IMG/VR virus record: IMGVR_UViG_3300023174_000472
Location: 1-30,841 of that record
Origin: a virus
DNA length: 30,841 nucleotides
Reading direction: 5' to 3' (one strand)
This document shows, in pieces, positions 1,751 through 18,920 of this stretch (its first letter is position 1; every line of letters begins with the position of its first letter). A program made the translations under genes and the position numbers. Below the pieces are notes generated by a model. The model was not told the origin of the DNA and searched no databases. It saw only the letters and a list, made by a program, of their open reading frames with translations.

Positions 1751-1754
1751 CAGC

Positions 1755-1762
1755 AATAAATA
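1755..1762 (+). promoter_or_regulatory. T4-like late promoter box (AATAAATA)
   Basis: CAATAAATAC lies 22 bases before the ATG at 1785 in the only gap between the assembly gene and the next fibre gene. It matches the T4-type late consensus TATAAATA in seven of eight positions. The same CAATAAATA form appears at 17363-17371 before the sugar dehydrogenase. Confidence 0.45.
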
Positions 1763-1784
1763 CAAGATACTAGGGGCTAACAGC

Positions 1785-3587: not shown

Positions 3588-4501
3588 TGACTACAGGAAC
3601 AAATATCCTTGCATCGCAGTATGTAACCATACAGGATAAAGCCCAGTCTTTGTTAGGCACAGGGTCAGGTACTAGAGGTTACGGACAGACAGTGGCATCT
3701 TCTGATGTATTCTCTGGCAATACTATAACAAAAGCCCAATGGGATCTAATTAAGTTTGATATTATCAACATCAAATTTCACCAGGACGGTAATGTTCCTC
3801 CGGTAGTAAACGTCAATATTGGAGATCCTATAGGATTTGGTCCTAGTTCTCCAAATACAAATTATGATATAATATTAGAAGATGCGATTGTAAAAAGATT
3901 CCTTATAGCAGGAAGTCAGTCTATTACCTCCGCCAAAGGCAGCCAAACGTATAGTTCACCGTGGTCTACACAGGCACAGGCAACACTTACAGTGACATTT
4001 GCTAACTCTAATCAAGGTAGATATTTTTTTAACAGTGGCGGCAAAATAAGATTTAATTCAGCACTAGTGGGTGCAGTAACTACAGCACAGGTTAATGCAT
4101 GGGTTAATTTTCTAAGTGCAGTAGGCACACAGAGTTTTGGAGCTGACACTGATCCGTTGGTTAATTATTATACATTAACAAATTCTTATCAAACCTATTA
4201 TCAAAATTTCTTAAGCAGCTCGTATTCTGCCAATAGTTATAAACTTGAAGCTAGATGCAATGTGGCAAATAATTCTACAGGAACAGCTACACAATTAGAA
4301 CTACGTGTAACACTGTTGGATAGTTATGTTGATCCTGATACAGCTAATCCCGGACCTCCGACTTTTGCTCCAAATGATGTTGTTAACGGCACATTAACTA
4401 TATCGGTGTCTGAACTCAAAGCATCCGGGCAATTACAACCTTCCGGTACCTTTACCATAACAAGTCCTACGTATTCACTTTCTAGTATCTCAGCTAGTTA
4501 A
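3587..4501 (+). CDS. Virion structural protein, tandem paralog 1
   Basis: 304 residues. The ATG overlaps the previous stop as TAATG, so translation is probably coupled. It opens with an 'ILASQYVTIQDKAQSLLGTGSGTRGYGQ' type block and 'ITKAQWDLIKFDIIN', and has a central 'RYFFNSGGKIRFNSA ... TQSFGAD' segment. I recognise this layout from structural proteins of T4-like marine phages, where it sits among fibre and tail genes. The following gene (4518-5522) has the same domain order and is a clear paralog. No enzyme motif is seen. Likely a small fibre, fibre-tip or capsid/tail decoration; the exact role is not known to me. Confidence 0.65.
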   Translation: MTTGTNILASQYVTIQDKAQSLLGTGSGTRGYGQTVASSDVFSGNTITKAQWDLIKFDIINIKFHQDGNVPPVVNVNIGDPIGFGPSSPNTNYDIILEDAIVKRFLIAGSQSITSAKGSQTYSSPWSTQAQATLTVTFANSNQGRYFFNSGGKIRFNSALVGAVTTAQVNAWVNFLSAVGTQSFGADTDPLVNYYTLTNSYQTYYQNFLSSSYSANSYKLEARCNVANNSTGTATQLELRVTLLDSYVDPDTANPGPPTFAPNDVVNGTLTISVSELKASGQLQPSGTFTITSPTYSLSSISAS

Positions 4502-4517
4502 GAACTTAAATAATCTC

Positions 4518-5522
4518 ATGCCATCAGTTAACGATAAAATTTTTAAAGCTGATTATAATACAATCAGAAACAAAATAGTTGGAGTCTTGGGTTTTGGCTC
4601 AGGTAATACTGGGTACGGTCAGCAGGCACGTGTTCAATCAACAGCTGTCTCAGAAGACAACAAAGTTACAATCAACGAATGGGCCAATCTTAGATATGAT
4701 ATCATCAACGCCTACAAACATATATATGGATCTAATCCGACCACAGCTACAGTTTCTGAAGGCGGAACAATCCGTTATACTACGAATTTTACACCGGATA
4801 CTGGCACACTAGATGTGCCGCAACGACAGTATGATGTGTGGGCAGATGCTATAGTTGCTAATAGATTTACGGTTGCAGCCGGCGAGTCCGCCACCACTGG
4901 AGTTATATCATCAAGTAAAACAACTTCGTGGGTGTCTCAATGTGCGTGTACCATACAAATTTATTGGTCAAATTCCAACGATGCTAGATATTGGTTTAAC
5001 AGCGGTGGACGAATCAGAATTAGTGCATCGAGATCCGGAGGAGCTGCTACTTCTCAGAATACATCTTGGACTTCTTTATTGAGCGCAGCAGGCTCACAAA
5101 GTTTTGGAGGAGCCCTACCCAACACAGGTACTTCTCCTAATGACGGCACAAATTGGTATAGAACCACCAGTACTTTTCAAACTTTTTATACCGCTACAGC
5201 ATCGAGTCCTTATGGATCTAACAATTATCAATTACAGGCTAGATGCGTAGACCAGCCCAGTAACAGTGGAGGATTAGCATCTCAATTAGAGATTCGAGCG
5301 TTATTTACGGACGGTTATGTTGATCCGGGCATTGCCCCTATTACCTTTCCGGGCAACGTTCAAACAGCCACTCCGGCAAATTTCCCCCCAGATGACGTAG
5401 TAGATGGAACACTGACTGTAAACGTCTCCTCGATCTACGCTACAGGCATTATGGTGCCCGCTAGTCAAATATTCACAGTAACGCAGCCAACCATTGCTAT
5501 TGGCGCCGTTACCGGCAGTTAA
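4518..5522 (+). CDS. Virion structural protein, tandem paralog 2
   Basis: 334 residues, starting 16 bases after the previous stop; no convincing Shine-Dalgarno is visible. It repeats the architecture of the preceding gene: 'YNTIRNKIVGVLGFGSGNTGYGQQ', 'ITINEWANLRYDIINAYKH'-like block, 'RYWFNSGGRIRISASRSGG' and 'AAGSQSFGGA', then a 'VDPG ... PDDVVDGTLTVNVS' tail matching 'VDPD ... PNDVVNGTLTISVS' in the first copy. It is about 30 residues longer, mostly through insertions in the middle and the C-terminal third. A virion role is inferred from position and from memory of cyanophage relatives. The stop is followed by a late promoter for the next transcription unit. Confidence 0.65.
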   Translation: MPSVNDKIFKADYNTIRNKIVGVLGFGSGNTGYGQQARVQSTAVSEDNKVTINEWANLRYDIINAYKHIYGSNPTTATVSEGGTIRYTTNFTPDTGTLDVPQRQYDVWADAIVANRFTVAAGESATTGVISSSKTTSWVSQCACTIQIYWSNSNDARYWFNSGGRIRISASRSGGAATSQNTSWTSLLSAAGSQSFGGALPNTGTSPNDGTNWYRTTSTFQTFYTATASSPYGSNNYQLQARCVDQPSNSGGLASQLEIRALFTDGYVDPGIAPITFPGNVQTATPANFPPDDVVDGTLTVNVSSIYATGIMVPASQIFTVTQPTIAIGAVTGS

Positions 5523-5548: not shown

Positions 5549-5556
5549 TATAAATA
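5549..5556 (+). promoter_or_regulatory. T4-like late promoter box (TATAAATA)
   Basis: An exact TATAAATA lies in the 61-base gap between the structural genes and the glycosyltransferase block. A 7-bp inverted repeat (ATAAACT 5554-5560 / AGTTTAT 5565-5571, loop ACGC) overlaps its downstream edge, and a strong AAGGAG ribosome site (5573-5578) follows, 5 bases before the ATG at 5584. This is the best late promoter in the window and probably drives 5584-11183. Confidence 0.6.
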
Positions 5557-5583
5557 AACTACGCAGTTTATCAAGGAGAACTC

Positions 5584-5934
5584 ATGGACCAACAGCTTAA
5601 AGATGCTTTGGATTTTGCCAACTATCAACAGACTGTCTCTATTCAAAAAAAAGTTCTTAAAGAACGCATAGCAGCCAAACTAACTTATGGCTTCAATGGC
5701 GGGTTGTTTCGAATCGATAGAACCCTTTTAACTTTTGTAGACATGTTATGTATGAAAGATAGAACATCTGGAGTAATTCTGTTAGACGCCAATGAAAATC
5801 CTGTGCTAATAGACGACCTCAATGAATTTTCTGAAGAGATTTTTCGAAGGTATTTTGAAGCTACTAACGAATATTTTGAACAACATCAAAAGATCAAAAA
5901 AAGTAGATCTGTGGAAAAATTAATATCTCAATGA
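5584..5934 (+). CDS. Conserved phage protein of unknown function
   Basis: 116 residues, first gene after a TATAAATA late box, with a perfect AAGGAG site 5 bases upstream. The sequence is charged and predicted helical, with no membrane segment or signal. The middle contains 'YGFNGGLFRIDRTLLTFVDML' and 'GVILLDANENPVLIDDLNEFSEEI'; the C-terminus is a basic helix (KKSRSVEKLIS). I do not recognise a catalytic motif. It overlaps the next gene by ATGA, so it is co-translated with the glycosyltransferases. Its strong expression signals suggest a structural or stoichiometric role, but that is inference. Confidence 0.6.
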   Translation: MDQQLKDALDFANYQQTVSIQKKVLKERIAAKLTYGFNGGLFRIDRTLLTFVDMLCMKDRTSGVILLDANENPVLIDDLNEFSEEIFRRYFEATNEYFEQHQKIKKSRSVEKLISQ

Positions 5935-6791
5935 CACAGGGAATACTACTCTTTGCGCACAACAATCGTACAGTTGATTATGCATTAATGGCTGTGATAT
6001 CCGGCGGACTGGCTAAGAAAAATTTGCAGGTTCCGGTTTCGTTGATCACAGATGCATCTACCATTGCATGGATGCAGGAATCAAATATTTTTAATCAGGC
6101 CGAAAGTTTGTTCGATCACATCATTACGGTTGACAGACCCACTACTGATAATCAAAGACGCTTGCATGACGGGCAATCTGGCCAGATGATTCCTTTTATA
6201 AACACCAATAGAAACACAGCATATGATCTTACTCCGTACGATCGAACATTGTTAATAGATAGTGATTTCTTTATCTTGTCATCTAGTCTTGGAGAATATT
6301 GGAATGTCGATGCAGATGTGATGCTAGGAAGTGCTATTAATGATATCTATAATGATTCCCGTGTAGGATACTTGGATAGACATGTGAGTGATACAGGTGT
6401 TAAAATGTATTGGGCTACCACAGTGATGTTTTCTAAGAATGCAAATGCTAAATTATTTTTTGACACAGTGAATTATGTCAAAGAAAATTATTCTCAATTT
6501 GCTGATGTGTTTAGATTCGACCCTCGACAATTTAGAAATGACATTGCTTTTAGTGTAGCTAAACATATATTAGATGGCTATCAACAGAACGACATTCTAT
6601 CATTGCCTCCGGTATTATCAGCACTAGACAAGGATGTCCTGTATGGTGTTAATGGTAACACGCTGACGTTTCTAGTAGATCATAAATTGACCAACTCATA
6701 TTGTGCTACTGCTATATCTAACGTGGACATACACATTATGAATAAGCAAAGTGTGATTAGAAATAAACAAGCATTATTGGAGTTAATATGA
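5931..6791 (+). CDS. GT-A-fold glycosyltransferase-like protein
   Basis: 286 residues, ATGA overlaps at both ends. The N-terminus (GILLFAHNNRTVDYALMAVISGGLAKK) and the following 'VSLITD' strand fit the nucleotide-sugar half of a GT-A fold. 'YDRTLLIDSDFFIL' gives a DxD motif at residues 110-112, the usual metal/nucleotide-diphosphate site. C-terminal 'DVDIHIMNKQ' resembles the late His-containing strand of GT8-like enzymes. It is a distant paralog of the next gene (same order: N-terminal strand, 'FDHVI', 'LTPYDRT', DxD). Predicted to transfer a sugar in the cytoplasm of the infected cell; donor and acceptor are unknown. Confidence 0.65.
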   Translation: MTQGILLFAHNNRTVDYALMAVISGGLAKKNLQVPVSLITDASTIAWMQESNIFNQAESLFDHIITVDRPTTDNQRRLHDGQSGQMIPFINTNRNTAYDLTPYDRTLLIDSDFFILSSSLGEYWNVDADVMLGSAINDIYNDSRVGYLDRHVSDTGVKMYWATTVMFSKNANAKLFFDTVNYVKENYSQFADVFRFDPRQFRNDIAFSVAKHILDGYQQNDILSLPPVLSALDKDVLYGVNGNTLTFLVDHKLTNSYCATAISNVDIHIMNKQSVIRNKQALLELI

Positions 6792-7627
6792 ACTTTGGAT
6801 ATCTGCTAGTTGTTGCAGAGCATGATTCTATTGATTATCTACAGCTAGCCTACGGGTTGGCACTAAGCATAAAAAACACACAGCGAGAAGGCTACGATCG
6901 AGTAGCGATTGTAATAGATGATAAAACAAAAATAGAAAAACTTACTAGCCCGTGGGTGTTTGATCATGTGATAGAATGGAGTCAAGAAACATTTTGGGAT
7001 GGACGCAGCTGGATGGATCAGCTTACTCCGTTTGATCACACAGTATGTTTAGATGTCGATATGCTGTTCTTACAAGATCACAGCCATTGGATTGATTATT
7101 TTGTTGATAACAGTGAATTATATATTGCAAATCAAGTATTGACTTACAGAAGTGATATCGCTACTAATCGTACCTATAGAAAAGCCTTCGATAAAAATAA
7201 TCTTCCAAATTTATATTCCATGTGGACTTTTTTTAGCAAGGACTCTCAAATGGTCAAAGAATTCTTTGATCTAGGGAGAAGCATAATTAAAAATCCTATA
7301 GAATTTTCAAACATGTTCTTGAATCATTTCAAGCCAAAAGTTTTAGGCACTGACGAAGCATTGGCATTGGCTGCAGAAATATTGGGGATCTCAGACGACA
7401 TTGCTTATGAATTAGAATTTCCTAGAATAGTACATATGAAGCCCATGTTACAGAATTGGCCGTGGCCTGCAGATACATGGAGCGATCATGTGGGATTTTA
7501 TCTCAATAAAAAAGGTCAACTAAAAATAGGAAATTACCAGCAGTATGATATAGTTCACTATGTAGAAAAAGATAAAATAAACACGGAAATGATAAACAAT
7601 CTCGAGGAAATAGCATGGAAACTGTAG
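6788..7627 (+). CDS. GT-A-fold glycosyltransferase-like protein (paralog of upstream gene)
   Basis: 279 residues, starts in an ATGA overlap with the previous gene. Order of features matches its neighbour: 'YLLVVAEHDSIDYLQLAYGLALSIK', 'VAIVIDD', 'FDHVIEW', 'QLTPFDHTVCLDVDMLFLQD' with a DxD at residues 89-91, and a late 'PRIVHMKPMLQNWPW' strand whose His could be the third metal ligand of GT8-like enzymes. The pair looks like an old duplication, now divergent enough to have separate specificities. Predicted sugar transferase acting with the other island enzymes. The family is inferred from motif pattern only. Confidence 0.65.
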   Translation: MNFGYLLVVAEHDSIDYLQLAYGLALSIKNTQREGYDRVAIVIDDKTKIEKLTSPWVFDHVIEWSQETFWDGRSWMDQLTPFDHTVCLDVDMLFLQDHSHWIDYFVDNSELYIANQVLTYRSDIATNRTYRKAFDKNNLPNLYSMWTFFSKDSQMVKEFFDLGRSIIKNPIEFSNMFLNHFKPKVLGTDEALALAAEILGISDDIAYELEFPRIVHMKPMLQNWPWPADTWSDHVGFYLNKKGQLKIGNYQQYDIVHYVEKDKINTEMINNLEEIAWKL

Positions 7628-8232
7628 AAGATTTCGACAAATGGTTGGCTGAATATAAGCCAGCACCTGTGAAATATGTAGCTGTATATGATCCGTTGAC
7701 AGGCTTTGTGATAAGTGTAGGTCCCGATTACGCTTTTCCGGATGAAGACCATGTAGTTAACATAGACAGCGAAACAGCGGTGTCAATCATCACAGCAGAA
7801 ATACAGATACACCATTGTCAAATAGATATCCATTCAGGCGAATTAGAAATAGCCGAAACAAAGACTTTGACTAAATTAGACGATGTGTTGCACAGAATAC
7901 CATTAATACAATACAGCGATATTACTAAACCAGATGTGTATCTTACTTATACGGCAAAAAGCAAAACTTTAAAAATACAGTTGTCAACTGAGTTTGGCGG
8001 AAATAAAAAATACAAAGATGGAAATAAGCAGAGAAAGTTTGTTTGGGACGGAAGCACAGTTATGGATTTTCTAATCACTGAGTATAATGATCCTAATTTG
8101 ATCTACGAGATGTTTTCTGTTAAAATAAATGATCTAGTAGGTAAAACTGTTACAGTTAAAAACGTGTCTTATGACAACTTTAGTGTTTATACCAGACGAT
8201 TATTTAAAAATTATGTGATTGAACTAAAATGA
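7615..8232 (+). CDS. Conserved phage protein of unknown function
   Basis: 205 residues, overlapping the upstream glycosyltransferase by 13 bases and the downstream one by ATGA. The N-terminal half has 'VAVYDPLTGFVISVGPDYAFPDEDHVVNIDSETA' and 'CQIDIHSGELEIAE', a beta-rich segment I recall from proteins among late genes of T4-like cyanophages. The C-terminal half is also beta-strand rich, with basic stretches (GGNKKYKDGNKQRKF). No enzyme motif, signal or membrane segment. Lying between two pairs of glycosyltransferases, it could be a virion protein and acceptor of glycosylation, but this is only position-based inference. Confidence 0.55.
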   Translation: METVEDFDKWLAEYKPAPVKYVAVYDPLTGFVISVGPDYAFPDEDHVVNIDSETAVSIITAEIQIHHCQIDIHSGELEIAETKTLTKLDDVLHRIPLIQYSDITKPDVYLTYTAKSKTLKIQLSTEFGGNKKYKDGNKQRKFVWDGSTVMDFLITEYNDPNLIYEMFSVKINDLVGKTVTVKNVSYDNFSVYTRRLFKNYVIELK

Positions 8233-9128
8233 AAATTGTTGAATTTGATGTTATATTTTTAAGTTACGACGAACCTAATGCAGATCTGCACTATGCTGAT
8301 CTCTGTGCCAAGGCGCCTTGGGCCAAGCGTGTACATGGAGTCAAAGGTAGCGATCATGCACACAAGGCCGCAGCAGAGTTAGCAGAAACAGATTGGTTTA
8401 TCACTGTGGATGCTGATAATATAGTAGATCCTAGTTTCTTTAATTTAGACCTTGATATGACTGATCCTACGATAGAAGTATATGGATGGTGTGGACGAAA
8501 TAAGATCAACGGACTGAGATATGGTAATGGTGGAATAAAAATTTGGAAGAAAACCTTTGTTCTCAACATGAAGACACATGAAAATTCAGAAAGTGATCGA
8601 GGTCAAGTAGACTTCTGTTGGGAAGATGGATATCGTAATTTTCCAAGAGTCTACAGCGACAGTATTATTACAGGTAGTCCATTCCAGGCCTGGAGAGCAG
8701 GATTCCGCGAAGGTGTTAAAATGACCTTGCTTGACGGAGTTCGTGTTCCGCCACAGGAAATTCAAGAACGTATCTGGTGGCACAATATTCATAGATTGCG
8801 TATGTGGTCAACAGTTGGCGCCCATGAGGAGAACGGCCTTTATGCTGTTTACGGTGCAAGATTAGGCACATGGCTGGCAAATTGTACAGACTGGAACTAT
8901 GTTGAAGTTAGAGATTTTGAAATTCTTAGAGCAATATGGAATCAGTATGGTCGACCGTTTGAAGAAGTAGGAGGTACCGGCCTACGAGAAGAAATTGAAT
9001 CGCTCGGAGATAAAATTAAAATTAATTTGGGCTTGGTGTATCCGTACCTAGATGCAGCACAAAGCAAGTATACAATAGATTTATACGATGAAACGATAAA
9101 TCTAGGATTAACCTACTTTAGACAATAA
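8229..9128 (+). CDS. GT-A-like glycosyltransferase with DAD motif
   Basis: 299 residues, ATGA overlap with the preceding gene. It begins 'FDVIFLSYDEPNADLHYADL', then 'RVHGVKGSDHAHKAAAE', then 'DWFITVDADNIVDPSF' with the DxD at residues 61-63, which is the layout of GT2-like GT-A enzymes (nucleotide strand, ribose contact, DxD). Later 'YGNGGIKIWKK' and 'SPFQAWRAGFREGVKM' are shared with the next gene, marking both as paralogs of a phage-typical family. The C-terminal ~60 residues are absent from the paralog. Likely transfers a sugar from a nucleotide donor; acceptor unknown. Confidence 0.65.
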   Translation: MKIVEFDVIFLSYDEPNADLHYADLCAKAPWAKRVHGVKGSDHAHKAAAELAETDWFITVDADNIVDPSFFNLDLDMTDPTIEVYGWCGRNKINGLRYGNGGIKIWKKTFVLNMKTHENSESDRGQVDFCWEDGYRNFPRVYSDSIITGSPFQAWRAGFREGVKMTLLDGVRVPPQEIQERIWWHNIHRLRMWSTVGAHEENGLYAVYGARLGTWLANCTDWNYVEVRDFEILRAIWNQYGRPFEEVGGTGLREEIESLGDKIKINLGLVYPYLDAAQSKYTIDLYDETINLGLTYFRQ

Positions 9129-9826
9129 TGTACGATATTATTTTTATCAGTTATAACGAGCCTAATGCAGATGCAAACTTTGCTAAGTTGAAATCGCGAT
9201 TTCCATATGCCCAGAGAATCAATGGGGTCAAAGGAATTCACCAAGCACATATTGCTGCCGCTAAAAAATCATTCACTAAGATGTTTTGGGTAGTAGATGG
9301 AGATGCTGAAATCGTAAATACATTTAATTTTGATTATGTTGTCAACAAATACGATCTAGAATGTGTACATGTATGGCGCAGTCAAAATCCAATTAACAAT
9401 TTAGAATATGGGTATGGAGGTGTAAAACTATTACCTAAAGCGTTAACAACAAAATTAGATATCACAACACCTGATATGACTACTAGCATTAGTCCTCTGT
9501 TTAAGATAATGCCAGAAGTCAGTAACATAACAGCATTTAACACAGATCCGTTTAATACTTGGAAATCAGCATTTAGAGAATGTTGTAAACTAGCAAGTAG
9601 AGTTATTGATCGTCAAGATGACACAGAGACTACTCAAAGACTGACTGCTTGGTGCGCATTGAATGATGCAGTACCATACGGGTTCTATGCATTTTTAGGA
9701 GCCGAAGGCGGAAAGGTATACGGAGAAACTAATCGTAATGCCCCCGAGAATCTTAAATTAATAAATGACTTTGATTGGTTACAGACTCAGTTTGATTTGG
9801 TCAAGGAAAGAACAAGTGGACGATAA
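9128..9826 (+). CDS. GT-A-like glycosyltransferase with DGD motif, shorter paralog
   Basis: 232 residues, starting in a TAATG junction with the upstream paralog. Matching blocks: 'DIIFISYNEPNADANFAKL', 'RINGVKGIHQAHIAAAK', 'MFWVVDGDAEIV' (DxD at 57-59), 'LEYGYGGVKLLPK', 'DPFNTWKSAFRECCKLAS' and 'GFYAFLGAEGGKVYG'. It lacks the C-terminal extension of its neighbour but is otherwise complete, so it is a shorter form rather than a broken gene. Its last 11 bases overlap the probable GTG start of the radical SAM gene. Function is inferred to be sugar transfer, as for its neighbour. Confidence 0.65.
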   Translation: MYDIIFISYNEPNADANFAKLKSRFPYAQRINGVKGIHQAHIAAAKKSFTKMFWVVDGDAEIVNTFNFDYVVNKYDLECVHVWRSQNPINNLEYGYGGVKLLPKALTTKLDITTPDMTTSISPLFKIMPEVSNITAFNTDPFNTWKSAFRECCKLASRVIDRQDDTETTQRLTAWCALNDAVPYGFYAFLGAEGGKVYGETNRNAPENLKLINDFDWLQTQFDLVKERTSGR

Positions 9827-11183
9827 AGCTCGAATACAAAAATTCATTCCTATCATGAATGAGATCAGCCCTACGTTCTGTATGGCCAAGTGGCATCATA
9901 CAACCATTTATTTGCAAACAGGGGAAACACATAGCTGTTATCATCCTGCCCCTCATAAAATTCCTTTAGATGAGATTGTTATAGATGCAAGTGCATTGCA
10001 CAACACTAATCAAAAGAAACATGAACGATTAGAAATGCTCAATGGTGGAAAACCTAGCGGTTGTAATTACTGTTGGAATATCGAGGCTATGGGAGACGAT
10101 TATATTAGCGATCGTAAAGAACGCAACTCGACAATCTACACAGATCAAAGATTTCAACAGATCAAAGATAGTGACTGGGATCAGAATATTAATCCGCAGT
10201 ATGTTGAAATTAGTTTTGGTAACGAATGTAATTTTAAATGCGGATACTGCCATCCTAAACACAGCAGTAGTTATTATAAAGAAATCAAGGACCATGGGCC
10301 TTATAACATGGTTAAGAATCATCGTAACGACATCGATTGGTTTCGAATCTATGAAGAAGAAACTAATCCCTATGTAGAAGCATGGTGGCAGTGGTGGCCT
10401 GAAGTTCGTAAGACACTGACTATTTTACGTATAACTGGTGGTGAACCATTACTACAATCTAGTACATGGAAACTTCTAGACGATCTATTAATTAATCCTT
10501 TACCTGATCTTGAATTAAACATTAACACAAACTTCGGAGTTAAACCGATCTTAATCGACAGGCTAGTAGAAAAAGTTAACAATTTAATTGATAATGGTTG
10601 TATCAAAGATTTTAAAATCTTTACTAGTATAGACACATGGGGAGCTCCTGCAGAATACATTCGTACAGGATTGGATTTAACTGTTTGGGAACGCAACTTA
10701 GATACCTATCTAACTAAGACTACATTACCGATTACATTTATGTGTACCTTTAATGTTCTTACAGTGACTAATTTCCAAAGTCTATTAGAAAAGATCCTAG
10801 AATGGCGTGTTAAGTATAATGGTTTTGATCAAAACAAATGGCAACGCATCCGATTTGACACACCTTACTTAAAAGAACCGTTGCAGTATGATATGAATAT
10901 TTTGCCTAAGGACGAGTTTATACCTTACATGGTAAGTCATCTAGACTTCATTCTAGCCAATCTAGACGACAAAAACCGCAGCAAATTCAATGACTTAGAG
11001 TATGCAAAATTTGAAAGAGTCGTGAAATACATGGAATCAGCTATCTATACCCCAGAAAAACTGTTAGAAGGCAAACGAGACTTCTTTAATTGGTTTACAG
11101 AATATGATCGAAGACGCGGCACCAATTTCTTAGAAACATTCCCTGAGCTAGAGAAGTTCTATCATGACTGTGGCGCCACCTAA
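9816..11183 (+). CDS. Twitch-domain radical SAM protein
   Basis: 455 residues from the GTG at 9816, chosen because AAGGAAAG at 9803-9810 lies just upstream; the ATG at 9855 has no ribosome site. 'NECNFKCGYC' gives the radical SAM CX3CX2C cluster at residues 138, 142 and 145. 'ILRITGGEPLL' is the GGE SAM-binding motif. Upstream, 'HSCYHPAPHK' and 'SGCNYCWNIE' supply Cys residues ahead of the core, as in 'twitch' radical SAM proteins of phages and marine bacteria, which have no proven substrate. It closes the plus-strand glycosyltransferase run and overlaps the convergent gene by 4 bases. Possible roles include sugar dehydration, epimerisation or peptide modification. Confidence 0.75.
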   Translation: MDDKARIQKFIPIMNEISPTFCMAKWHHTTIYLQTGETHSCYHPAPHKIPLDEIVIDASALHNTNQKKHERLEMLNGGKPSGCNYCWNIEAMGDDYISDRKERNSTIYTDQRFQQIKDSDWDQNINPQYVEISFGNECNFKCGYCHPKHSSSYYKEIKDHGPYNMVKNHRNDIDWFRIYEEETNPYVEAWWQWWPEVRKTLTILRITGGEPLLQSSTWKLLDDLLINPLPDLELNINTNFGVKPILIDRLVEKVNNLIDNGCIKDFKIFTSIDTWGAPAEYIRTGLDLTVWERNLDTYLTKTTLPITFMCTFNVLTVTNFQSLLEKILEWRVKYNGFDQNKWQRIRFDTPYLKEPLQYDMNILPKDEFIPYMVSHLDFILANLDDKNRSKFNDLEYAKFERVVKYMESAIYTPEKLLEGKRDFFNWFTEYDRRRGTNFLETFPELEKFYHDCGAT

Positions 11184-12310
11184 AATTTAATATCGGTTAT
11201 TAGTTTTTCAAACTTTGATATTTGTTCTTTTCGATGCTTATTTTCAAGAAACACTCGATAATTATACTTTAGAATTTTTCGATTGCTAAACCGCCATTTG
11301 ATTTGCTGTTCTCTTGGTAGATTTTTTAAAATATTAACAGCAGTCTCGGCGCTCTTTAGTAGTTTTTTATACCGTATAATATCATCTGGTTCATCGTCAA
11401 ATCCCAAATCAAAATAACTTTCGTAATTTTTAAATCCTAATAGACTTAATTTTTTATTGATTCCTTGATGGCCGTATATCAGCATCGGTTGGAAGTTGAT
11501 AATAGGCTTTAAGAATTTTTCTGAAAAGAATAGCGTGGTATTATTAGCATTGTCCACTAGTGTCTCGTTGACAATACTAAATGCTGTTTTAGAATGTAAT
11601 TCAGACAATGCGTTAAATGGATCATTAACCTCAAATTGATTTTTATCAGCAATTAACGGAAGACTACTTTTAAAATTTTCAAATTGAAGATCAGTTATTT
11701 CCATTTTTTTAAGATCGTAATCGTTAATCGTACAATTAACTACATCTTGACTAGTAATACTATGTTCGACCAACGGTGAATTAAACAGCATACAATGTGC
11801 AAGTACTCGATGAAATCGATTTCTTCTTGATAAACTAAGTATAATTTTTTCGTAATTTTTACAGCATTCGGTCTCGGCTTGCTCTATTGTGTCGATCATG
11901 GTGTTTTTCCAGTCACGACTATGGTCTAATAAAAAAATTGGGATGATATTGATTTCTGCCGAATTATCAATAAGATTTCCTGTAAAGTAAAATATCTTTT
12001 TAGGATTTATATTATGAATAATACAACTCTTATACAATGCCATTGCAATAGGAGCGATGTCTGGACTAAATCCTTCAAACGCAGAATCAAATATTAATAC
12101 AGTTTTATGATTTCTGAGTTGATCTAACGATTCTTTACCAATAAATTGAAACAGGTCGACAGCATTGTAAGACGGCAATGGATAACTTAATAATAATTTA
12201 ATATAAGTTATTTCGGTGTCAATGTGATTGAAACAACTAGTAAGCAACGTTTCGTCGTCAGGACTCCAGAAATACGGGTTGCCAGTTATAGTAGCTTTTA
12301 ATTCTGTCAT
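11180..12310 (-). CDS. Phage glycosyltransferase-like protein, SEK-motif family (member 1, inverted)
   Basis: 376 residues, the only minus-strand gene between 1 and 18614. It shares two blocks with 13156-14370 and 16334-17368: 'LSLSRRNRFHR' at about 158-168 and 'FFSEKFLKPIINFQPMLIYG...LGF' at about 261-293. A basic RxxxHR block followed by an SEK/TEK-K-P block resembles the donor-binding C-terminal half of fucosyltransferase- or exostosin-like GT-B enzymes, but this is an inference and no named family is certain. No signal or membrane helix. The coding sequence is very AT-rich. No Shine-Dalgarno precedes the ATG; a CATAAATA box ends only 4 bases upstream. Confidence 0.5.
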   Translation of the reverse strand: MTELKATITGNPYFWSPDDETLLTSCFNHIDTEITYIKLLLSYPLPSYNAVDLFQFIGKESLDQLRNHKTVLIFDSAFEGFSPDIAPIAMALYKSCIIHNINPKKIFYFTGNLIDNSAEINIIPIFLLDHSRDWKNTMIDTIEQAETECCKNYEKIILSLSRRNRFHRVLAHCMLFNSPLVEHSITSQDVVNCTINDYDLKKMEITDLQFENFKSSLPLIADKNQFEVNDPFNALSELHSKTAFSIVNETLVDNANNTTLFFSEKFLKPIINFQPMLIYGHQGINKKLSLLGFKNYESYFDLGFDDEPDDIIRYKKLLKSAETAVNILKNLPREQQIKWRFSNRKILKYNYRVFLENKHRKEQISKFEKLITDIKF

Positions 12311-12314
12311 GATA

Positions 12315-12322
12315 TATTTATG
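12315..12322 (-). promoter_or_regulatory. Late-promoter-like box (CATAAATA), minus strand
   Basis: In the 27-base divergent gap between 12310 and 12338, CATAAATA on the minus strand ends 4 bases before the ATG at 12310. If used, the transcript would be leaderless or nearly so. The gap is AT-rich, so chance is possible. Confidence 0.3.
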
Positions 12323-12323
12323 T

Positions 12324-12331
12324 ACTAAATA
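12324..12331 (+). promoter_or_regulatory. Late-promoter-like box (ACTAAATA), plus strand
   Basis: ACTAAATA on the plus strand lies 6 bases before the ATG at 12338, back to back with the minus-strand box in the same divergent gap. It resembles the CTAAATA form reported for cyanophage late promoters. No ribosome site separates it from the start codon. Confidence 0.25.
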
Positions 12332-12337
12332 TTAGTT

Positions 12338-13144
12338 ATGCAGAATTCAACCCCCTCTATCGATTTTAAAAAATATAAAAGATTTTTTGCATTTGGTTGC
12401 AGCTTTACTACCTATTCATGGCCTACCTGGGCAGACATAATAGCAAAGGAAATTCCGGATCATTACATATATGCTAAACCAGGAGCTGGCAATTTTTATA
12501 TGTTTCAAGCATTAATGGAAGCAATTATACGTCACAAAATTAATAAAGATGATCTTGTGATGATTATGTTTACAAATATAACGAGAGAAGATCGATTTAT
12601 AAAAAACAAAGGGTGGATTACGCCCGGTAATTTATATCATCAAACAGAATACAGTCAAGAATTCTTAAAAAAGCACTTATGTCATCACGGATATTTAATG
12701 AGAGATTTAAATTTAGCTCAGGGTTGTAAATTGGCATTAGAAAATACTGGATGCGACTACGACTTACTGTCTATGGTTCCGTTTGATAGCGAGCAAAGCA
12801 ACGAAAAAAAAATAGATCATGTTGATTACATTCTTCAATTTTATAAAAATATTATAGAATCTGTTAGACCCAGTGTACTGGATGTAGTGTTTAATAATGA
12901 TTGGGAATCTCGCCCACATCGACCTGAATATTTTGTTCGCTGGCAAAAAGAGAAATTTAAAGATAGTCACCCTACACCTGCAGAACATCTGGAATTTCTA
13001 CAACATACCTATACCAATATTGAATTTAGTAAGTCTACGTTGGAGTTTGTCAACACTTATAATGAAGTTGTTTTATCTAAAAATTTCGACAACGATTCTG
13101 GATTGACTTTTTCTAAAAATTTATCTCCTAGACTAGGTAATTAG
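12338..13144 (+). CDS. SGNH/GDSL-type hydrolase
   Basis: 268 residues. 'RFFAFGCSFTTYSWPTWAD' carries the nucleophile block (GCSFT, Ser22), 'KPGAGNFYM' around 48-55 fits the Gly/Asn oxyanion blocks, and 'DSHPTPAEHLEFL' gives the Asp209/His211 pair of the last block. Together these define the SGNH family: esterases and O-acyl-transfer enzymes, many acting on polysaccharides. No signal peptide, so it works in the cell cytoplasm or is packaged. Lying between glycosyltransferase-like genes, it may add or remove acyl groups on the island's glycan; this is inferred from context. No Shine-Dalgarno is visible. Confidence 0.7.
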   Translation: MQNSTPSIDFKKYKRFFAFGCSFTTYSWPTWADIIAKEIPDHYIYAKPGAGNFYMFQALMEAIIRHKINKDDLVMIMFTNITREDRFIKNKGWITPGNLYHQTEYSQEFLKKHLCHHGYLMRDLNLAQGCKLALENTGCDYDLLSMVPFDSEQSNEKKIDHVDYILQFYKNIIESVRPSVLDVVFNNDWESRPHRPEYFVRWQKEKFKDSHPTPAEHLEFLQHTYTNIEFSKSTLEFVNTYNEVVLSKNFDNDSGLTFSKNLSPRLGN

Positions 13145-13155
13145 GCTTCCCGGTT

Positions 13156-14370
13156 ATGAGTAAAATACTTCAGATACTTGATATAAGTTCGACCCCGGTT
13201 AACACAAAGTTGTTTAACATAACGGCTGTAAATCACAAGAAAGACCCATATTGGGTTGATTTTATAGAGCCGCATTTTAATGAACTTGGAATGGAAATAA
13301 AAATCTTATCGCTAGATAATATTGATTTATCAAAAAAATGGTTAATCAACGTAGATATTAACAGTTGGAATTGGACAGTACACACTGGCAGTATTATTGC
13401 AGATTTTGATCCGTTGATACAACAAGAATTAAAATCAGGAAATGCTTTTTTAATACTAAACCACCAGTGCGAGTCGTTCACAAAATCATTCTTAAGTGTA
13501 ATCTACAAAAAAGTTTTAGATATTCCTTTCAACAAAATTATCTACATGGTTGCCGCAGCAGATATAGAACAAGAATACATGAATTTTGTAAAAGAAAATA
13601 ATATTAAAAATAAACTATCAGTCATGTATGTACATCATGTTTACAAAAGATTTAAACATGATGTTAACTTAGAATATTTTAAGTATAGCCCGATCAAGAA
13701 AACAAAAAAATACCTTTCACTGAATCGTAGAGGGAGAGATCACAGGATCATGCTAACAAGTTTGCTTTCTTATAAAAATTTATTGGATCAGGGGTTTGTT
13801 AGTTTAGGAGTAATGCCTAATGAAAGCACCGTTGCAATGAGAAAATTAACCAGCAATAATCAGCGTATTGGATTTTCAAAATTTAAAGATATGCTGCCGT
13901 TACAAATAGACGATGTTGATTTAAATGTTAATCAGTTCCAAATGAATTCTTTACCGATTGAATTCTATCAACAAAGTTGTTTTAGCCTAGTATCTAGTAC
14001 AATGGCCCTAAAATCCGACGAAGGGTCTGTGGGGTTTACAGAAAAAGAAATTAAACCAATATTAGCAAAACACCCCTTCATTATTTTAAATAGACCAGGA
14101 GTTCTTAAACACATGAAGAGCATGGGTTTTTTAACATTTGAAAAATGGTTCAATGAAAGCTACGACAGTGAATTAGATGATGAATCTCGCATAGAACAAA
14201 TTGTCAACGAAGTAGAACGACTGTGTAAATTTTCTTTTGAAGAATGGGAGATTATGTTAGACGAAATGCAGCCAGTGCTAGAACACAACTACTATAGAAT
14301 GGTTAACTATACAACCGAACATTGTTATTTTAACAGTGACTTAAAAAAGCTATTATACTATGTCTCTTAG
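13156..14370 (+). CDS. Phage glycosyltransferase-like protein, SEK-motif family (member 2)
   Basis: 404 residues. Contains 'KKYLSLNRRGRDHRIMLTSLL' (NRRGRDHR at residues 190-197) and 'GFTEKEIKPILAKHPFIILNRPGVLKHMKSMGF' in the C-terminal third, the two blocks that unite it with the genes at 11180 and 16334. The N-terminal half is divergent, as expected if it binds the acceptor while the C-terminal half binds a nucleotide sugar. 'FIILNRPGVLKHMKSMGFLTFEKWF' looks like a Rossmann-type strand-loop-helix. It starts 11 bases after the SGNH gene and overlaps the radical SAM gene by 11 bases. AT-rich coding with many AAA/TTA codons. GT assignment is a working hypothesis. Confidence 0.5.
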   Translation: MSKILQILDISSTPVNTKLFNITAVNHKKDPYWVDFIEPHFNELGMEIKILSLDNIDLSKKWLINVDINSWNWTVHTGSIIADFDPLIQQELKSGNAFLILNHQCESFTKSFLSVIYKKVLDIPFNKIIYMVAAADIEQEYMNFVKENNIKNKLSVMYVHHVYKRFKHDVNLEYFKYSPIKKTKKYLSLNRRGRDHRIMLTSLLSYKNLLDQGFVSLGVMPNESTVAMRKLTSNNQRIGFSKFKDMLPLQIDDVDLNVNQFQMNSLPIEFYQQSCFSLVSSTMALKSDEGSVGFTEKEIKPILAKHPFIILNRPGVLKHMKSMGFLTFEKWFNESYDSELDDESRIEQIVNEVERLCKFSFEEWEIMLDEMQPVLEHNYYRMVNYTTEHCYFNSDLKKLLYYVS

Positions 14371-16291
14371 ACTTATTAGTTTAGTCCAGCCCAATTTCCA
14401 ACAAGGCCCAAAGGAATATAACGCACATTACTTACCATATAGTGCAGGAGTACTATGGGCGTATGTTAATCAGTTTGATTCAATTAAATCTAACTATCAA
14501 CTAGAGGATATAATTTGGCGAAGAGATAACATTGAAGAAACCGTTGATAAATTATCTCGTTGCGACATTGTTGGATTTAGTACGTATGTGTGGAACAAAA
14601 ATTATAACTACACGCTGGCCCGAAAGGTAAAAGAACGCAATCCTGAATGTATCATATTATTTGGCGGACCTGAAATGCCAATAACAAAGAAAGATATATT
14701 TAAAAAGTTGCCGTTCATTGATGTTGTTATTAAATCAGAAGGCGAGCTGATACTGCGACAGTTATTAGATGCAATATCAGACAATACAGCTTGGGTTGAT
14801 ATCAAGGGATTATTAATTAACAGAGACGGCCTAGCAGTGGATACCGGCAACGGTGACCGCATCAGTACCTTGGAAGATTTGCCTAGTCCGTATCTCACAG
14901 GGGTGTTTGATAAGATCATGTCAGAAGTCACTGACGTAGAATGGAACGCCACAGTGGAAACTAATCGCGGGTGTCCATATGCGTGTACATTCTGTGACTG
15001 GGGCAGTTTAACTTACAACAAGGTTAAAAAGTTTGGCCTTGAAAAAGTATTTGCAGAGTTGGAATGGATCGGTCAAAACAAGTGCGGATTTGTTACTATC
15101 ACAGATGCCAACTTTGGTATGTTTGTTGAACGCGATAATGCTATTGCTGATAAACTAATTGAAGTACAACAGAAACATGGCTGCCCTAATAGTTTCAGCA
15201 TGAGTTGGGCCAAGGATCAGAAGCCAGAAGTATTTGATATTGTATTCAAACTAATTAAGAATCCCAAGTTTAATCAAGGACTAACGGTTAGTGTACAGAG
15301 CATGGATCTAGATGTACTGGAGAATATCAAACGCAAGAACCTTGCACAGCATAAGATTGAAAATATTTTTGCATTGTGCGATAAAAACAATGTGCCGGTA
15401 TACACTGAGATCATCCTAGGATTACCGGGCGAAACTGTTTCAACCTGGAAGGAAGGTTTCTATAAAATATTCCGTGCAGGCAATCATACAGGCATCAATA
15501 TTCTTCAAGCACAGATGTTGGAAAATGCCGAGATGAATCTGTTACAAGAAAAACTCTTTAAGATCACAAGTGTACCTGTGTACGATTACATGAGCGGGAG
15601 TTATAACTATAACGAATTAGAAGAATGTGTAAGTGTGGTAACAAGCACCAAAGATATGTCTATGGAAGAGATGTTAGATAGTCAAATATTCAGTTGGTTC
15701 ATGCAGACATTTCATATCAACGGGCTTACTACTTACATCAGTAGATTCTTGCACAAGAAGGCAGGAGTGGATTATTCAGTGTTCTACGATAAACTCTGGC
15801 AATACCTTATCAAAGATCCTTGGTTCATAGCAGAACAAGATGCTGTTCGTATGTATTACCGAAATTGGATGACAGTTGGCAAGATCAATCATCCTAATAT
15901 CAGCAACATTGAGATACATGGTTGGAATATCATACACAGAACTACCTTGCACATGCACAAGGATAGACGGTATGAATATGTTTTTGATTTAATAGAACGA
16001 TTTATAACCAACGAATTTGAATTAGAAAGCGATTGTTTGAATCAATTATTGTTGTTTCAAAAGAACTACGTGATAAACTATGATGATATTTCAAAGTTTC
16101 CGTATACCGTTGAATTCGATTATGACTTTCTTGGATACATTTTAGATGATACCTCATTAGAAACTGGCGTAAAATACAATTTTGAATTTCACGAACGCAG
16201 CGACATTAGTCTAGACAGATTTTTAGAAAATATCTACTTTGGAAGAAAACGTAATTTTGGAAAAACATTAATAACAAAGGAACCGGTATGA
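14360..16291 (+). CDS. B12-binding-type radical SAM enzyme
   Basis: 643 residues. The first ~150 residues fit a cobalamin-binding-like Rossmann domain, with 'CDIVGFSTYVWN' and 'ECIILFGGPEMP', the latter typical of B12-dependent radical SAM proteins; the DxHxxG His ligand is not seen, as in many members. 'ETNRGCPYACTFCDWG' gives CX3CX2C at residues 205, 209 and 212. The core continues with 'FVTITDANFGMF' and 'TEIILGLPGET'. The last ~200 residues form a long unassigned extension. Known relatives methylate unactivated carbons or rearrange sugars and peptides. Its context suggests a modified sugar, but the substrate cannot be read from sequence. Confidence 0.75.
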   Translation: MSLRLISLVQPNFQQGPKEYNAHYLPYSAGVLWAYVNQFDSIKSNYQLEDIIWRRDNIEETVDKLSRCDIVGFSTYVWNKNYNYTLARKVKERNPECIILFGGPEMPITKKDIFKKLPFIDVVIKSEGELILRQLLDAISDNTAWVDIKGLLINRDGLAVDTGNGDRISTLEDLPSPYLTGVFDKIMSEVTDVEWNATVETNRGCPYACTFCDWGSLTYNKVKKFGLEKVFAELEWIGQNKCGFVTITDANFGMFVERDNAIADKLIEVQQKHGCPNSFSMSWAKDQKPEVFDIVFKLIKNPKFNQGLTVSVQSMDLDVLENIKRKNLAQHKIENIFALCDKNNVPVYTEIILGLPGETVSTWKEGFYKIFRAGNHTGINILQAQMLENAEMNLLQEKLFKITSVPVYDYMSGSYNYNELEECVSVVTSTKDMSMEEMLDSQIFSWFMQTFHINGLTTYISRFLHKKAGVDYSVFYDKLWQYLIKDPWFIAEQDAVRMYYRNWMTVGKINHPNISNIEIHGWNIIHRTTLHMHKDRRYEYVFDLIERFITNEFELESDCLNQLLLFQKNYVINYDDISKFPYTVEFDYDFLGYILDDTSLETGVKYNFEFHERSDISLDRFLENIYFGRKRNFGKTLITKEPV

Positions 16292-16341
16292 AGATCGAAT
16301 GTATCTTAGCTACACAAGGAACGTTCGTCACGTATGGCTAA
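16288..16341 (+). CDS. Possible 17-residue mini-ORF or remnant
   Basis: An ATGA overlap with the radical SAM stop opens a 17-codon frame starting MKIECILATQG and ending TAA, 8 bases into the next gene. AAGGAAC inside it is the nearest ribosome site for the ATG at 16334. It could be a translational coupler, or the start of a gene whose body was deleted. Too short to judge coding. Confidence 0.2.
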   Translation: MKIECILATQGTFVTYG

Positions 16342-17368
16342 AAAACAAAAATCAAAAAGACCAACGTTAAATTACAATATCTGGAATACAAATATTCCAG
16401 TGGTCATTGAGCAGGATATCAAAGAACACAATCCCAGCCGAATTAATATATTTGCAGCAGAAGAACACGAAATAGCATCGACTTGGTCGGAAGATTTCAA
16501 TATTCTCAAAAAGTTATTCATAGATAATGATATAGAAGTTCACTTTATTTACGGTGCTGCTAATATGGAATTTTATAATACTAGATATCATTTTCCCGAG
16601 CATAGAATTTACACACATCTTTGGCCGTTTTATTATTTGTCTTTTACATTATCTTCGATGAAACACAATGAGTTTGTAAATCATGCTGATTATAACAACC
16701 CAAATTTTACAACGCCTTTTATATCAATGAACAACAGACCTCATACTCATAGATGTATGTTTATGGATCAAATGGCAAGATGCGACTTAATAGATACCGG
16801 TTCGGTGTCGTGGCACAATGACAATGTTCCGTATCAGTGGAAGTGGTGGAAAACTCCGCAGCGATTAAAGTTAGTTGATGATTTTAGCAACAACGGTAAT
16901 TCATATCGATTGCCAATAGAATGGAAATCTAGTTTTATGAATCTAGTATCTGAGTGCAGCATAAATCGAATATACTTTTCAGAAAAAACTTGGATTCCAT
17001 TATTATGTCACAAAGTTTTCCTTTCTCAATCTGATCAATACTTTTACAAGAAATTTAAAGAATGTGGATTTGAATTATACGATGAAATTTTTGATTATTC
17101 GTTTGATGATTATGCAGATGCTGATATTCGTACATCGATGATTATGGAAAATGTAAAAAATATAACAGGTAAAGATTATAATGCAATGCACAATTTACTG
17201 CTTCCTAAATTAAAACATAATTTTAATCGAGCAATTACTATTGCAACTAACAACGAGTATATGCCCAAGATTGCAAAAAATAGTGAATTTGCCATGGAAC
17301 TATATACTGCCCTTAAAGACATACAAAAATCAAAGTGTTTTTTGCTTTCCCTAAAAACCAAGCAATAA
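16334..17368 (+). CDS. Phage glycosyltransferase-like protein, SEK-motif family (member 3)
   Basis: 344 residues with a basic N-terminus (MAKKQKSKRP). 'FISMNNRPHTHRCMFMDQMA' (NNRPHTHR at 133-140) and 'RIYFSEKTWIPLLCHKVFLS...FKECGFELYDEIFDYSF' match the two family blocks of 11180-12310 and 13156-14370. This is the most divergent copy: the second block has 'SEKTWIPL' where others have 'xEKxxKPI'. 'HLWPFYYLSFTLS' near residue 95 is hydrophobic but too short and polar at its edges for a sure membrane helix. The ribosome site (AAGGAAC) is 13 bases upstream, rather far. Presumed sugar transferase by association; no biochemical family is certain. Confidence 0.45.
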   Translation: MAKKQKSKRPTLNYNIWNTNIPVVIEQDIKEHNPSRINIFAAEEHEIASTWSEDFNILKKLFIDNDIEVHFIYGAANMEFYNTRYHFPEHRIYTHLWPFYYLSFTLSSMKHNEFVNHADYNNPNFTTPFISMNNRPHTHRCMFMDQMARCDLIDTGSVSWHNDNVPYQWKWWKTPQRLKLVDDFSNNGNSYRLPIEWKSSFMNLVSECSINRIYFSEKTWIPLLCHKVFLSQSDQYFYKKFKECGFELYDEIFDYSFDDYADADIRTSMIMENVKNITGKDYNAMHNLLLPKLKHNFNRAITIATNNEYMPKIAKNSEFAMELYTALKDIQKSKCFLLSLKTKQ

Positions 17369-17371
17369 ATA
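17364..17371 (+). promoter_or_regulatory. Late-promoter-like box (AATAAATA)
   Basis: CAATAAATA at 17363-17371 overlaps the stop of the previous gene and lies 27 bases before the ATG at 17399. A TAGGAA ribosome site (17388-17393) follows with 5-base spacing. The same nonamer occurs at 1754-1762. Confidence 0.4.
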
Positions 17372-17398
17372 ACACAAGAAAAAGATATAGGAATCAAC

Positions 17399-18625
17399 AT
17401 GAAAATTGGATTTATTGGAATAGGCAAATTAGGAATGCCCTGCGCCGAGGTAATTGCCCAGAAAGGACATACAGTTACTGGATATGATGTAACAGATAGA
17501 CACAGCGATTATATTGATATTGTTGATAGCATAGAATCCTGTGTATACGACAAGGACATTGTTTTTATTGCAGTGCCTACACCACACGATCCTGCCTATG
17601 ATGGTCGTGAACCTACGGCACATTTAGAACCAAAAGATTTTTCATACAGTATAGTTGTAGGCTGCCTTAAGGAAGCAAACAAGTACATGAAAAAGAATCA
17701 GTTATTGGTTCTTATATCTACAGTTCTACCAGGAACAGTAAGGCGTGAGTTTGTAAAGCATGTTACCAATACTAGATTTATCTATAATCCATATCTTATA
17801 GCAATGGGCAGTGTGGGATGGGACATGGTCAATCCTGAAATGGTAATGATCGGCACCGAAGACGGCACCGAAACTGGTGATGCAAAACAACTAGTAGAAT
17901 TTTATAAATCTATAATGGAAAACAATCCACGGTACGAGATAGGAACATGGGACGAGTGTGAGTGTATTAAAGTTTTCTATAATACTTTTATCAGCACAAA
18001 GATCGGTCTTGTTAATATGATACAGGATGTTGCTATTAAACAAGGTAACATAAATGTAGATGTAGTAACAGAAGCTTTATCGAAGTCAACTATGCGTATC
18101 ATGGGTCCGCAATACATGACAGCTGGAATGGGCGATGGTGGCGGATGCCATCCTAGAGATAACATTGCTCTACGCTACATGGCCCAAGAGTTAGATTTGG
18201 GATATGATTTATTTGATGCAGTAATGAATGCTAGAGAAATACAGGCTAGGAATCTAGCTAAATTCCTTGCAATTGAATCAGAAAAGGCTGGCAAGCTCCC
18301 GGTATACATACACGGAAAAGCCTATAAGCCGGGTGTAGAATATTGCGATGGCAGTTATAGTCTATTGGTCGGGCATTATCTAGAACACGATTTTGGAATT
18401 ACTCCAATATATATAGATCCGTTGACGGGCGATACTGTAGCGGTGCCTATTAGGGGTGTGATACTCTTAGCTCACAATAAAAAAGTTACCTACGAATATA
18501 GAGGATTTGAAGAAACTCAGAATCTATATTGTGCAATAGAGAAAGGGTCTATTGTGGTAGACCCTTGGAGAACTTTTATTTCTAATGAACATAATGTAAT
18601 ACATTATGGAAATACTAGAAAATAG
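17399..18625 (+). CDS. UDP-glucose/nucleotide-sugar 6-dehydrogenase
   Basis: 408 residues, normal length for the family. The N-terminal Rossmann motif is GIGKLG (GxGxxG, residues 7-12) with 'FIAVPTP' and 'STVLPGT' following. The catalytic set is intact: Lys191 and Asn195 in 'ECIKVFYNTF', Cys250 and Asp254 in 'GGGCHPRDN' (family consensus GGxCxPKD, here Arg for Lys). The C-terminal domain has 'HGKAYKPGVEYCDGS', matching the usual GxAFKPxxxDxRxS. The enzyme performs a two-step NAD-dependent oxidation of a nucleotide sugar to its uronic acid; which sugar is not certain. It is likely the donor-making enzyme for the glycosyltransferases nearby. It converges on, and overlaps by 11 bases, the minus-strand operon. 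Confidence 0.85.
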   Translation: MKIGFIGIGKLGMPCAEVIAQKGHTVTGYDVTDRHSDYIDIVDSIESCVYDKDIVFIAVPTPHDPAYDGREPTAHLEPKDFSYSIVVGCLKEANKYMKKNQLLVLISTVLPGTVRREFVKHVTNTRFIYNPYLIAMGSVGWDMVNPEMVMIGTEDGTETGDAKQLVEFYKSIMENNPRYEIGTWDECECIKVFYNTFISTKIGLVNMIQDVAIKQGNINVDVVTEALSKSTMRIMGPQYMTAGMGDGGGCHPRDNIALRYMAQELDLGYDLFDAVMNAREIQARNLAKFLAIESEKAGKLPVYIHGKAYKPGVEYCDGSYSLLVGHYLEHDFGITPIYIDPLTGDTVAVPIRGVILLAHNKKVTYEYRGFEETQNLYCAIEKGSIVVDPWRTFISNEHNVIHYGNTRK

Positions 18626-18920
18626 TTTTAGTTGAATCCATAATATCTTTTTTAAGTCTTTCTACATCGACCTTGAAATCTATTTTTTTGATTTCGTCTT
18701 TGTATTCGTGAAGTGTATTGATTAACACATCTGCAATTCCTTCAGCAGTTTGCGTATCTAATTCCTGTTTGACGTTGATCTCCCAAACCCTACCATCTGT
18801 AAAATCTAATCGCACTGAATCCAGATAGGCTACAGGCATGGTATTCATATAGAGATCTTCAAAAACTTCCGGCCACTCTTTTACAAGGTGGCGCGGAGGT
18901 TTGAATAACGGATTAGGCAT
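18615..18920 (-). CDS. Conserved phage protein of unknown function
   Basis: 101 residues, last gene of the minus-strand run, overlapping the upstream gene by 8 bases and the convergent dehydrogenase by 11. 'MPNPLFKPPRHLVKEWPEVFEDLYMNTMPVAYLDS' precedes 'VRLDFTDGRVWEINV' and an acidic/basic helical C-terminus (about 60-101). I recall similar small proteins in T4-like marine phages, without function. No catalytic motif, signal or membrane segment is visible. Confidence 0.6.
   Translation of the reverse strand: MPNPLFKPPRHLVKEWPEVFEDLYMNTMPVAYLDSVRLDFTDGRVWEINVKQELDTQTAEGIADVLINTLHEYKDEIKKIDFKVDVERLKKDIMDSTKTIF

Follow-up and report, generated by a model that had tools for sequence, protein, structure and literature searches.

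The window analysed here is the whole 30,841-base stretch of an IMG/VR virus record (IMGVR_UViG_3300023174_000472), which is probably a fragment of a larger genome. It stems from an uncultured, T4-like aquatic phage and carries an island of glycosyltransferase and radical SAM genes, in the order fibre-like genes, 5584, A1, A2, u7615, B1, B2, R, S1, SGNH, S2, V, S3 and UGDH, after which the genes of the window are in convergent orientation. A preliminary description had reported two pairs of DxD glycosyltransferase-like genes, three SEK-motif genes, a nucleotide-sugar dehydrogenase and two radical SAM enzymes directly after fibre and structural genes. All of these were recovered in place by motifs and profiles, and the upstream genes are fibre-like by PHROGs. 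To this inventory we add that S1 lies on the minus strand and that u7615 belongs to the gene set. The set is made up of three layers with different histories, namely the GT8 pair with u7615, B1 with R, and a swappable cassette.

Genes of the Island

The fibre region, the core and the cassette consist of the following genes.

129..1391 (+): tail-fibre-like protein; phrog_20242, 6722 and 1833, tail fiber protein, E 1e-10 to 6e-10
1674..3587 (+): tail-fibre or virion structural protein; phrog_19602, tail fiber, E 8e-17; phrog_14394, virion structural, E 9e-11
3587..4501 (+): st3, fibre-associated structural-like protein; paralogue of st4 (38% identical), composition (Ser+Thr 24%) and position
4518..5522 (+): st4, fibre-associated structural-like protein; paralogue of st3, weak Fibritin_C match (E 0.05)
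5584..5934 (+): 5584, small conserved protein between fibre and glycosyltransferase genes; alignment of 22 sequences
5931..6791 (+): A1, GT8/glycogenin-like GT-A glycosyltransferase; profile match to glycogenin E 4e-7, DSD110
6788..7627 (+): A2, GT8/glycogenin-like GT-A glycosyltransferase; profile match to glycogenin E 4e-7, DVD89
7615..8232 (+): u7615, unnamed core protein of 205 aa; co-occurrence 57/57 and 62/62
8229..9128 (+): B1, GT-A glycosyltransferase; DAD61, AlphaFold pLDDT 91.7, Foldseek
9128..9826 (+): B2, GT-A glycosyltransferase, paralogue of B1 (31%, shared motifs); DGD57
9765..11183 (+): R, N-terminal-twitch radical SAM enzyme; CNFKCGYC155, NCBIfam NF033640
11180..12310 (-): S1, SEK-family GT-B glycosyltransferase; aligned to S2, FSEK262
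12338..13144 (+): SGNH-motif hydrolase/acyltransferase-like protein; motifs only
13156..14370 (+): S2, SEK-family GT-B glycosyltransferase; AlphaFold pLDDT 90.7, Foldseek
14360..16291 (+): V, B12-binding radical SAM methylase; CPYACTFC205, W78, TokK E 4.7e-81, CysS E 3.7e-49
16334..17368 (+): S3, SEK-family GT-B glycosyltransferase; aligned to S2, FSEK215
17399..18625 (+): UGDH, UDP-glucose dehydrogenase-family enzyme; phrog_9148 E 1.5e-95, PF00984/PF03721 above cut-off, GGGCHPRD247
18615..18920 (-): g18615, convergent backbone gene; right border of the swappable cassette in 39 contigs

The seven glycosyltransferase-like genes are of three families: the GT8/glycogenin-like pair, a second GT-A pair, and the three GT-B SEK genes. 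A1, A2, B1, B2 and the SEK genes stayed unnamed in searches of Pfam, PHROGs and NCBIfam, and the families were resolved by profile-to-PDB search (A1/A2) and by structure prediction (B1, S2). Against the A1/A2 family, Pfam PF01501 reached only E 0.013, in one member. B1 and B2 had no match in the sequence-level family search; the top Foldseek matches of B1 are the PBCV-1 capsid glycosyltransferase 2p6w (E 1.7e-5), RmlT and HddC, and since the TM-scores are low the assignment covers fold, not function. The DxD aspartates of both GT-A pairs are invariant or nearly so in alignments of 25 and 31 sequences. The GT-B fold was modelled on S2, whose nearest folds are trehalose-6-P synthase, BshA and VldE (E 8e-6 to 4e-4), and S1 and S3 were assigned by alignment to it. 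All three SEK genes carry the FSEK/FTEK motif, its E and K being invariant in 35 sequences, and the family is scarce in cells (1 of 299 Pseudomonadota genomes). The fold comparison called for earlier gave GT-A for B1 and GT-B for S2.

The SGNH hydrolase named in the preliminary description retains its motifs (S22, N52, D209 and H211; GCSxT, GN and DxHP invariant in 24 sequences), but has no family match above cut-off, one of the 24 members touching PF13472 at E 0.007. For UGDH the subfamily TIGR03026 scored 140.7 bits, below its cut-off of 189.8. The core protein u7615, present in all close relatives checked, is perhaps a glycosyltransferase partner or a fibre protein.

A Fixed Core and a Swappable Cassette

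The first set of relatives was collected with V (220 matches) and R (416 matches) as queries, and repeatedly shows the order fibre-5584-A1-A2-u-B1-B2-R. Since this sample had been chosen via R or V, the search was reversed to start from the fibre genes, with the closest 80 matches of each scan and hence among nearer relatives. In contigs fetched by st3/st4, A1 lay downstream in 73/73, A2 in 68/68, u in 62/62, B1 in 53/53 and B2 in 48/48; the GT8 pair followed gene 5584 in 73/73 contigs, and R was present in 43/43 contigs fetched by 5584 and in 31/34 fetched by A2. The same order in every one of dozens of contigs long enough is above chance, and the conserved co-occurrence beside fibre genes, whose lack had been named in advance as refuting the idea of a glycan island, was found. 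Remoter phages (30-60% identity) retain much of the core order, including the 153-kb contig L171. Of ten long relatives, seven have a T4-type gp23 (PF07068), which in three of them lies some 53-57 kb away from R; the gp14 profile PF11649 gave no match in the relatives, nor in the controls. As a side observation, L171, which carries the fibre-glycosyltransferase-radical SAM core, comes from a Neomarinimicrobiota bin and L182, which carries the phage gene set, from a Pelagibacterales bin; both are probably phage contigs inside bacterial bins.

The stretch between R and g18615, here termed the cassette, was compared in 39 contigs. It occurs in 25 distinct versions of 2.1-8.3 kb, the shortest containing one SEK gene alone, and among the 25 a SEK gene is found in 22, an SGNH-type gene in 18, a 4,6-dehydratase-like gene in 11, UGDH in 10 and V in 3. 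Cassette guanine-cytosine content is 0.339 vs 0.368, below the surroundings in 25/25. In phages L086-L091 the flanking genes are 90-94% identical to those of the window, yet their cassettes are quite different: the cassette is replaced wholesale between relatives. A strict either/or of UGDH and the 4,6-dehydratase-like gene was considered and refuted, two of the 25 cassettes holding both.

Co-variation with the fibre proteins was assessed by partial Mantel correlation, with backbone distance removed, over 17 distinct phages. The GT8 pair and u7615 correlate with st3/st4 (0.43-0.61, p 0.0005-0.004), for example A1-st4 (0.61, p 0.0005) and A2-st3 (0.55, p 0.0005); 5584 also correlates with st3/st4, and u7615 with A1 at 0.78. 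B1 and R correlate with each other (0.62, p 0.0005), and neither R (0.02, p 0.44) nor B1 (0.07) co-varied with st4 in these phages. The gap between the GT8-fibre and B1/R-fibre correlations persists under the jackknife (0.29-0.45). Because the correlation drops between the touching genes u7615 and B1, there is at least a recombination boundary at this point. The preliminary description had spoken of a near-complete toolkit; a glycan island it is, but with one donor gene and in three layers, and we rejected the reading as one toolkit on the two co-variation blocks and the separately swapped cassette.

The Two Radical SAM Enzymes

The two radical SAM enzymes reported earlier are both present, and V is of the unusual B12 methylase class. 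It is homologous to TokK and CysS across both domains (~475 residues), and C205/C209/C212 and W78 are invariant in 39 phage sequences. W78 aligns with W76 of TokK, which occupies the lower axial space of cobalamin (PMC9692996). Homology and motifs point to a TokK/CysS-type cobalamin radical SAM methylase, for which C-methylation is predicted. Membership in KedN5 (NF033712) was rejected at 250.9 bits vs a cut-off of 700, which makes V a relative only. Among 47 phage V loci a SEK gene is nearby in 35, SGNH in 27 and UGDH in 26. Relatives of V (30-34%) were found in 16 of the 299 Pseudomonadota genomes; among the loci inspected, GT41 (L464, L468), a GHMP kinase, nucleotidyltransferase, DegT and GT2 (L465), or NeuB and a GT2-like gene (L467) adjoin them, and GT4 is also among the glycan genes beside bacterial V relatives. 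In another phage group (L058, L065-L076, L080-L084) V occupies a second site beside QueE/FolE, without UGDH. An SGNH gene is retained next to V at 8 of the 11 loci that adjoin QueE, V-SGNH being a second, portable pair in that group.

R scores 319.9 bits against the NF033640 cut-off of 170, and its bacterial relatives are mostly from Bdellovibrionota. Several of these relatives are flanked by genes for an ABC exporter pair and a carbamoyltransferase and by GT4 genes; other loci are without them. Polysaccharide or nucleotide-sugar loci are a frequent setting for the bacterial relatives of R and of V alike. Related large phages (L025-L078, G007-G009) carry tandem N-twitch radical SAM paralogues, up to ~10 matches per genome, and six or seven N-twitch radical SAM genes are clustered in the Bdellovibrionota contigs L166 and L174.

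A Plausible Acceptor and the Alternatives

The gene families, their constant order, the exchange of cassettes and the co-variation are observed; what the enzymes do, on which acceptor and to what benefit, we infer. The reading we favour, at about an even chance, is that the phage encodes a glycosylation system working in the cytoplasm, in which a conserved core is topped by an exchangeable cap and whose target is most probably the proteins of the fibre region. In this scheme the fixed core (A1/A2, B1/B2 and the twitch radical SAM enzyme R) would build or modify a short glycan, which the cassette would cap. Which donor the GT-B SEK transferases use would depend on the cassette: UDP-glucuronate in that of the window, and 4-keto-6-deoxy-type sugars where a 4,6-dehydratase-like gene is present. 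Tailoring may follow, SGNH acting on acyl groups and the TokK-type B12 radical SAM enzyme adding C-methyl groups, both radical SAM roles being read from family and context. The likeliest acceptor would be virion fibre-region proteins (st3/st4 or neighbours), and the outcome an exchangeable coat, comparable to a serotype, that covers the receptor-binding apparatus. No membrane segment was found in the island proteins by hydropathy, and the island has no initiating or lipid-carrier transferase, flippase, polymerase or exporter, which makes a cytoplasmic acceptor simpler; among such acceptors, position and co-variation speak most for the fibre-region proteins.

Several points weigh against this scheme. 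Cytoplasmic glycosyltransferases can also extend the core of lipopolysaccharide, and the bacterial contexts of R point equally to exported surface polysaccharide and to protein. Co-variation of neighbours can partly arise from physical linkage, the u7615/B1 boundary may be a mere recombination breakpoint, A2 and B1 correlate too (0.40, p 0.004), and the 17 phages are a small sample. The substrates of TokK and CysS are antibiotic precursors, not sugars, and the bacterial V locus L470 is by eye without a glycan gene, L468 and L469 having only few.

The main rival is remodelling of the host envelope, in which the enzymes would alter lipopolysaccharide or another surface glycan during infection and block superinfection by competitors. 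We consider it possible, though clearly less probable. It has already been proposed for pelagimyophage GT8 genes (PMC7029224). Bacterial R relatives adjoin O-antigen-type ABC exporters, UGDH relatives occur in cyanophage and pelagiphage islands with a carbamoyltransferase and sugar epimerases, and cassette swapping equally fits a change of surface serotype. It accords poorly with an island without membrane protein, lipid-carrier transferase, flippase or exporter, and the GT8 pair tracks and always adjoins fibre-region proteins, a link not required of a general enzyme of the host surface. Were the host envelope nevertheless the target, the island would offer a family, large and ordered, on which surface change driven by phages could be tested.

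In a mixed system, the GT8 pair would modify fibres while B1/B2/R and the cassette serve the host surface or a small molecule, the layers having been brought together by recombination at a hotspot in the fibre region. The barely correlated co-variation blocks, the separate swapping of the cassette, and V with SGNH at the second site beside QueE without UGDH (8/11 such loci) would all suit this, but B1/B2/R adjoin the GT8 pair without exception in close relatives, and we regard it as unlikely. It is more improbable still that the radical SAM enzymes modify peptides, in the manner of ribosomally synthesized and post-translationally modified peptides, or protein side chains rather than glycans. 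Twitch/SPASM enzymes do often act on peptides, NF033640 is twitch-type, and a short PqqD-like protein was noted, by eye only, close to one Bdellovibrionota R relative (L168); however, no precursor-peptide candidate lies beside R in the window, several cellular R neighbours are polysaccharide genes, and the closest solved relatives of V act on small molecules. Hypermodification of DNA by the island glycosyltransferases, to which QueE-/FolE-like genes, another glycosyltransferase-like gene elsewhere in the window and a weak SEK Foldseek match to T4 alpha-glucosyltransferase (E 6e-3) might point, is very improbable, as the island families are closer to other glycosyltransferases, the island is placed with fibre genes and not with nucleotide genes, and SGNH and UGDH would be ill-fitting partners.

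If fibre glycosylation is the function, the receptor-binding surface would carry a variable layer specified by enzymes, which host prediction from sequence leaves out of account, and an exchange of cassettes would offer a fast way to alter adsorption. A more specific form of the proposal, an exchangeable radical-SAM-made sugar coat on the fibre region of a T4-like aquatic phage, one cassette of which gives a C-methylated sugar via the TokK-type enzyme, we put forward tentatively and think rather doubtful as a whole. For TokK-type chemistry, a methylase carried by a phage would be a new context.

Other Genes of the Window

A third radical SAM gene, QueE-like and with only a weak Radical_SAM match, lies at 23004-23867 (-), and a FolE-like gene, named by eye, at 26843-27586 (-); together they suggest part of a 7-deazaguanine pathway, and modified DNA or queuosine chemistry. 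Outside the island an extra glycosyltransferase-like protein is encoded at 27625-28722 (-), with a weak GT61 match (E 0.036); this gene is kept beside FolE in L010 (78%).

Comparison with Known Systems

In mycobacteriophages, experiments have shown that phage-encoded glycosyltransferases glycosylate proteins of the capsid and the tail (Freeman 2023, cited by PMC12619734); the island likewise encodes glycosyltransferases, for which decoration of virion proteins is a prediction. The mycobacteriophages are unrelated phages. We know of no radical SAM enzyme or swappable cassette in their virion glycosylation. The PBCV-1 capsid glycosyltransferase 2p6w shares the GT-A fold with B1, a partial likeness (TM 0.24-0.33) that amounts to fold resemblance only. 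Like TokK and CysS, V has the CxxxCxxC motif and the lower-axial Trp; unlike them it is phage-borne and lies inside a glycan cassette.

The preliminary description had mentioned phages with single sugar enzymes; that phages carry no more than these is not supported, in view both of the island of Synechococcus phage Bellamy (NC_047838) and of the gene clusters of pelagimyophages and cyanomyophages (PMC7029224). In Bellamy, gene 227 is 59% identical to UGDH, and glycosyltransferases and many sugar genes lie together. The Bellamy island is far larger (epimerases, heptose, carbamoyltransferase and NadE genes), and the stretch of its record that holds these genes is without an annotated radical SAM gene. 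INPHARED gave no match for R, B1, A2 or S2, and for V only matches of 24-26%.

According to PMC7029224, T4-like pelagimyophages and cyanomyophages possess a host recognition cluster that is hypervariable and includes tail-fibre genes, GT8 enzymes and radical SAM cassettes, so that this type of island is already known. Such a cluster is placed between VrlC and gp14. The window resembles it in its T4-like setting, tail fibres, GT8-type glycosyltransferases, UDP-glucose dehydrogenase and radical SAM genes, and in having a hypervariable stretch (25 cassettes) between conserved R and g18615. It differs from that description in that swapping is confined to the later cassette, the GT8-GTA-radical SAM core staying constant; the passages excerpted from that paper do not mention a TokK-type B12 methylase or the SEK GT-B family. 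Within the open-licence PubMed Central literature, what is new is the fixed fibre-GT8-GTA-radical SAM core with its separate swappable cassette, together with the TokK-type B12 methylase and the SEK family as recurring parts.

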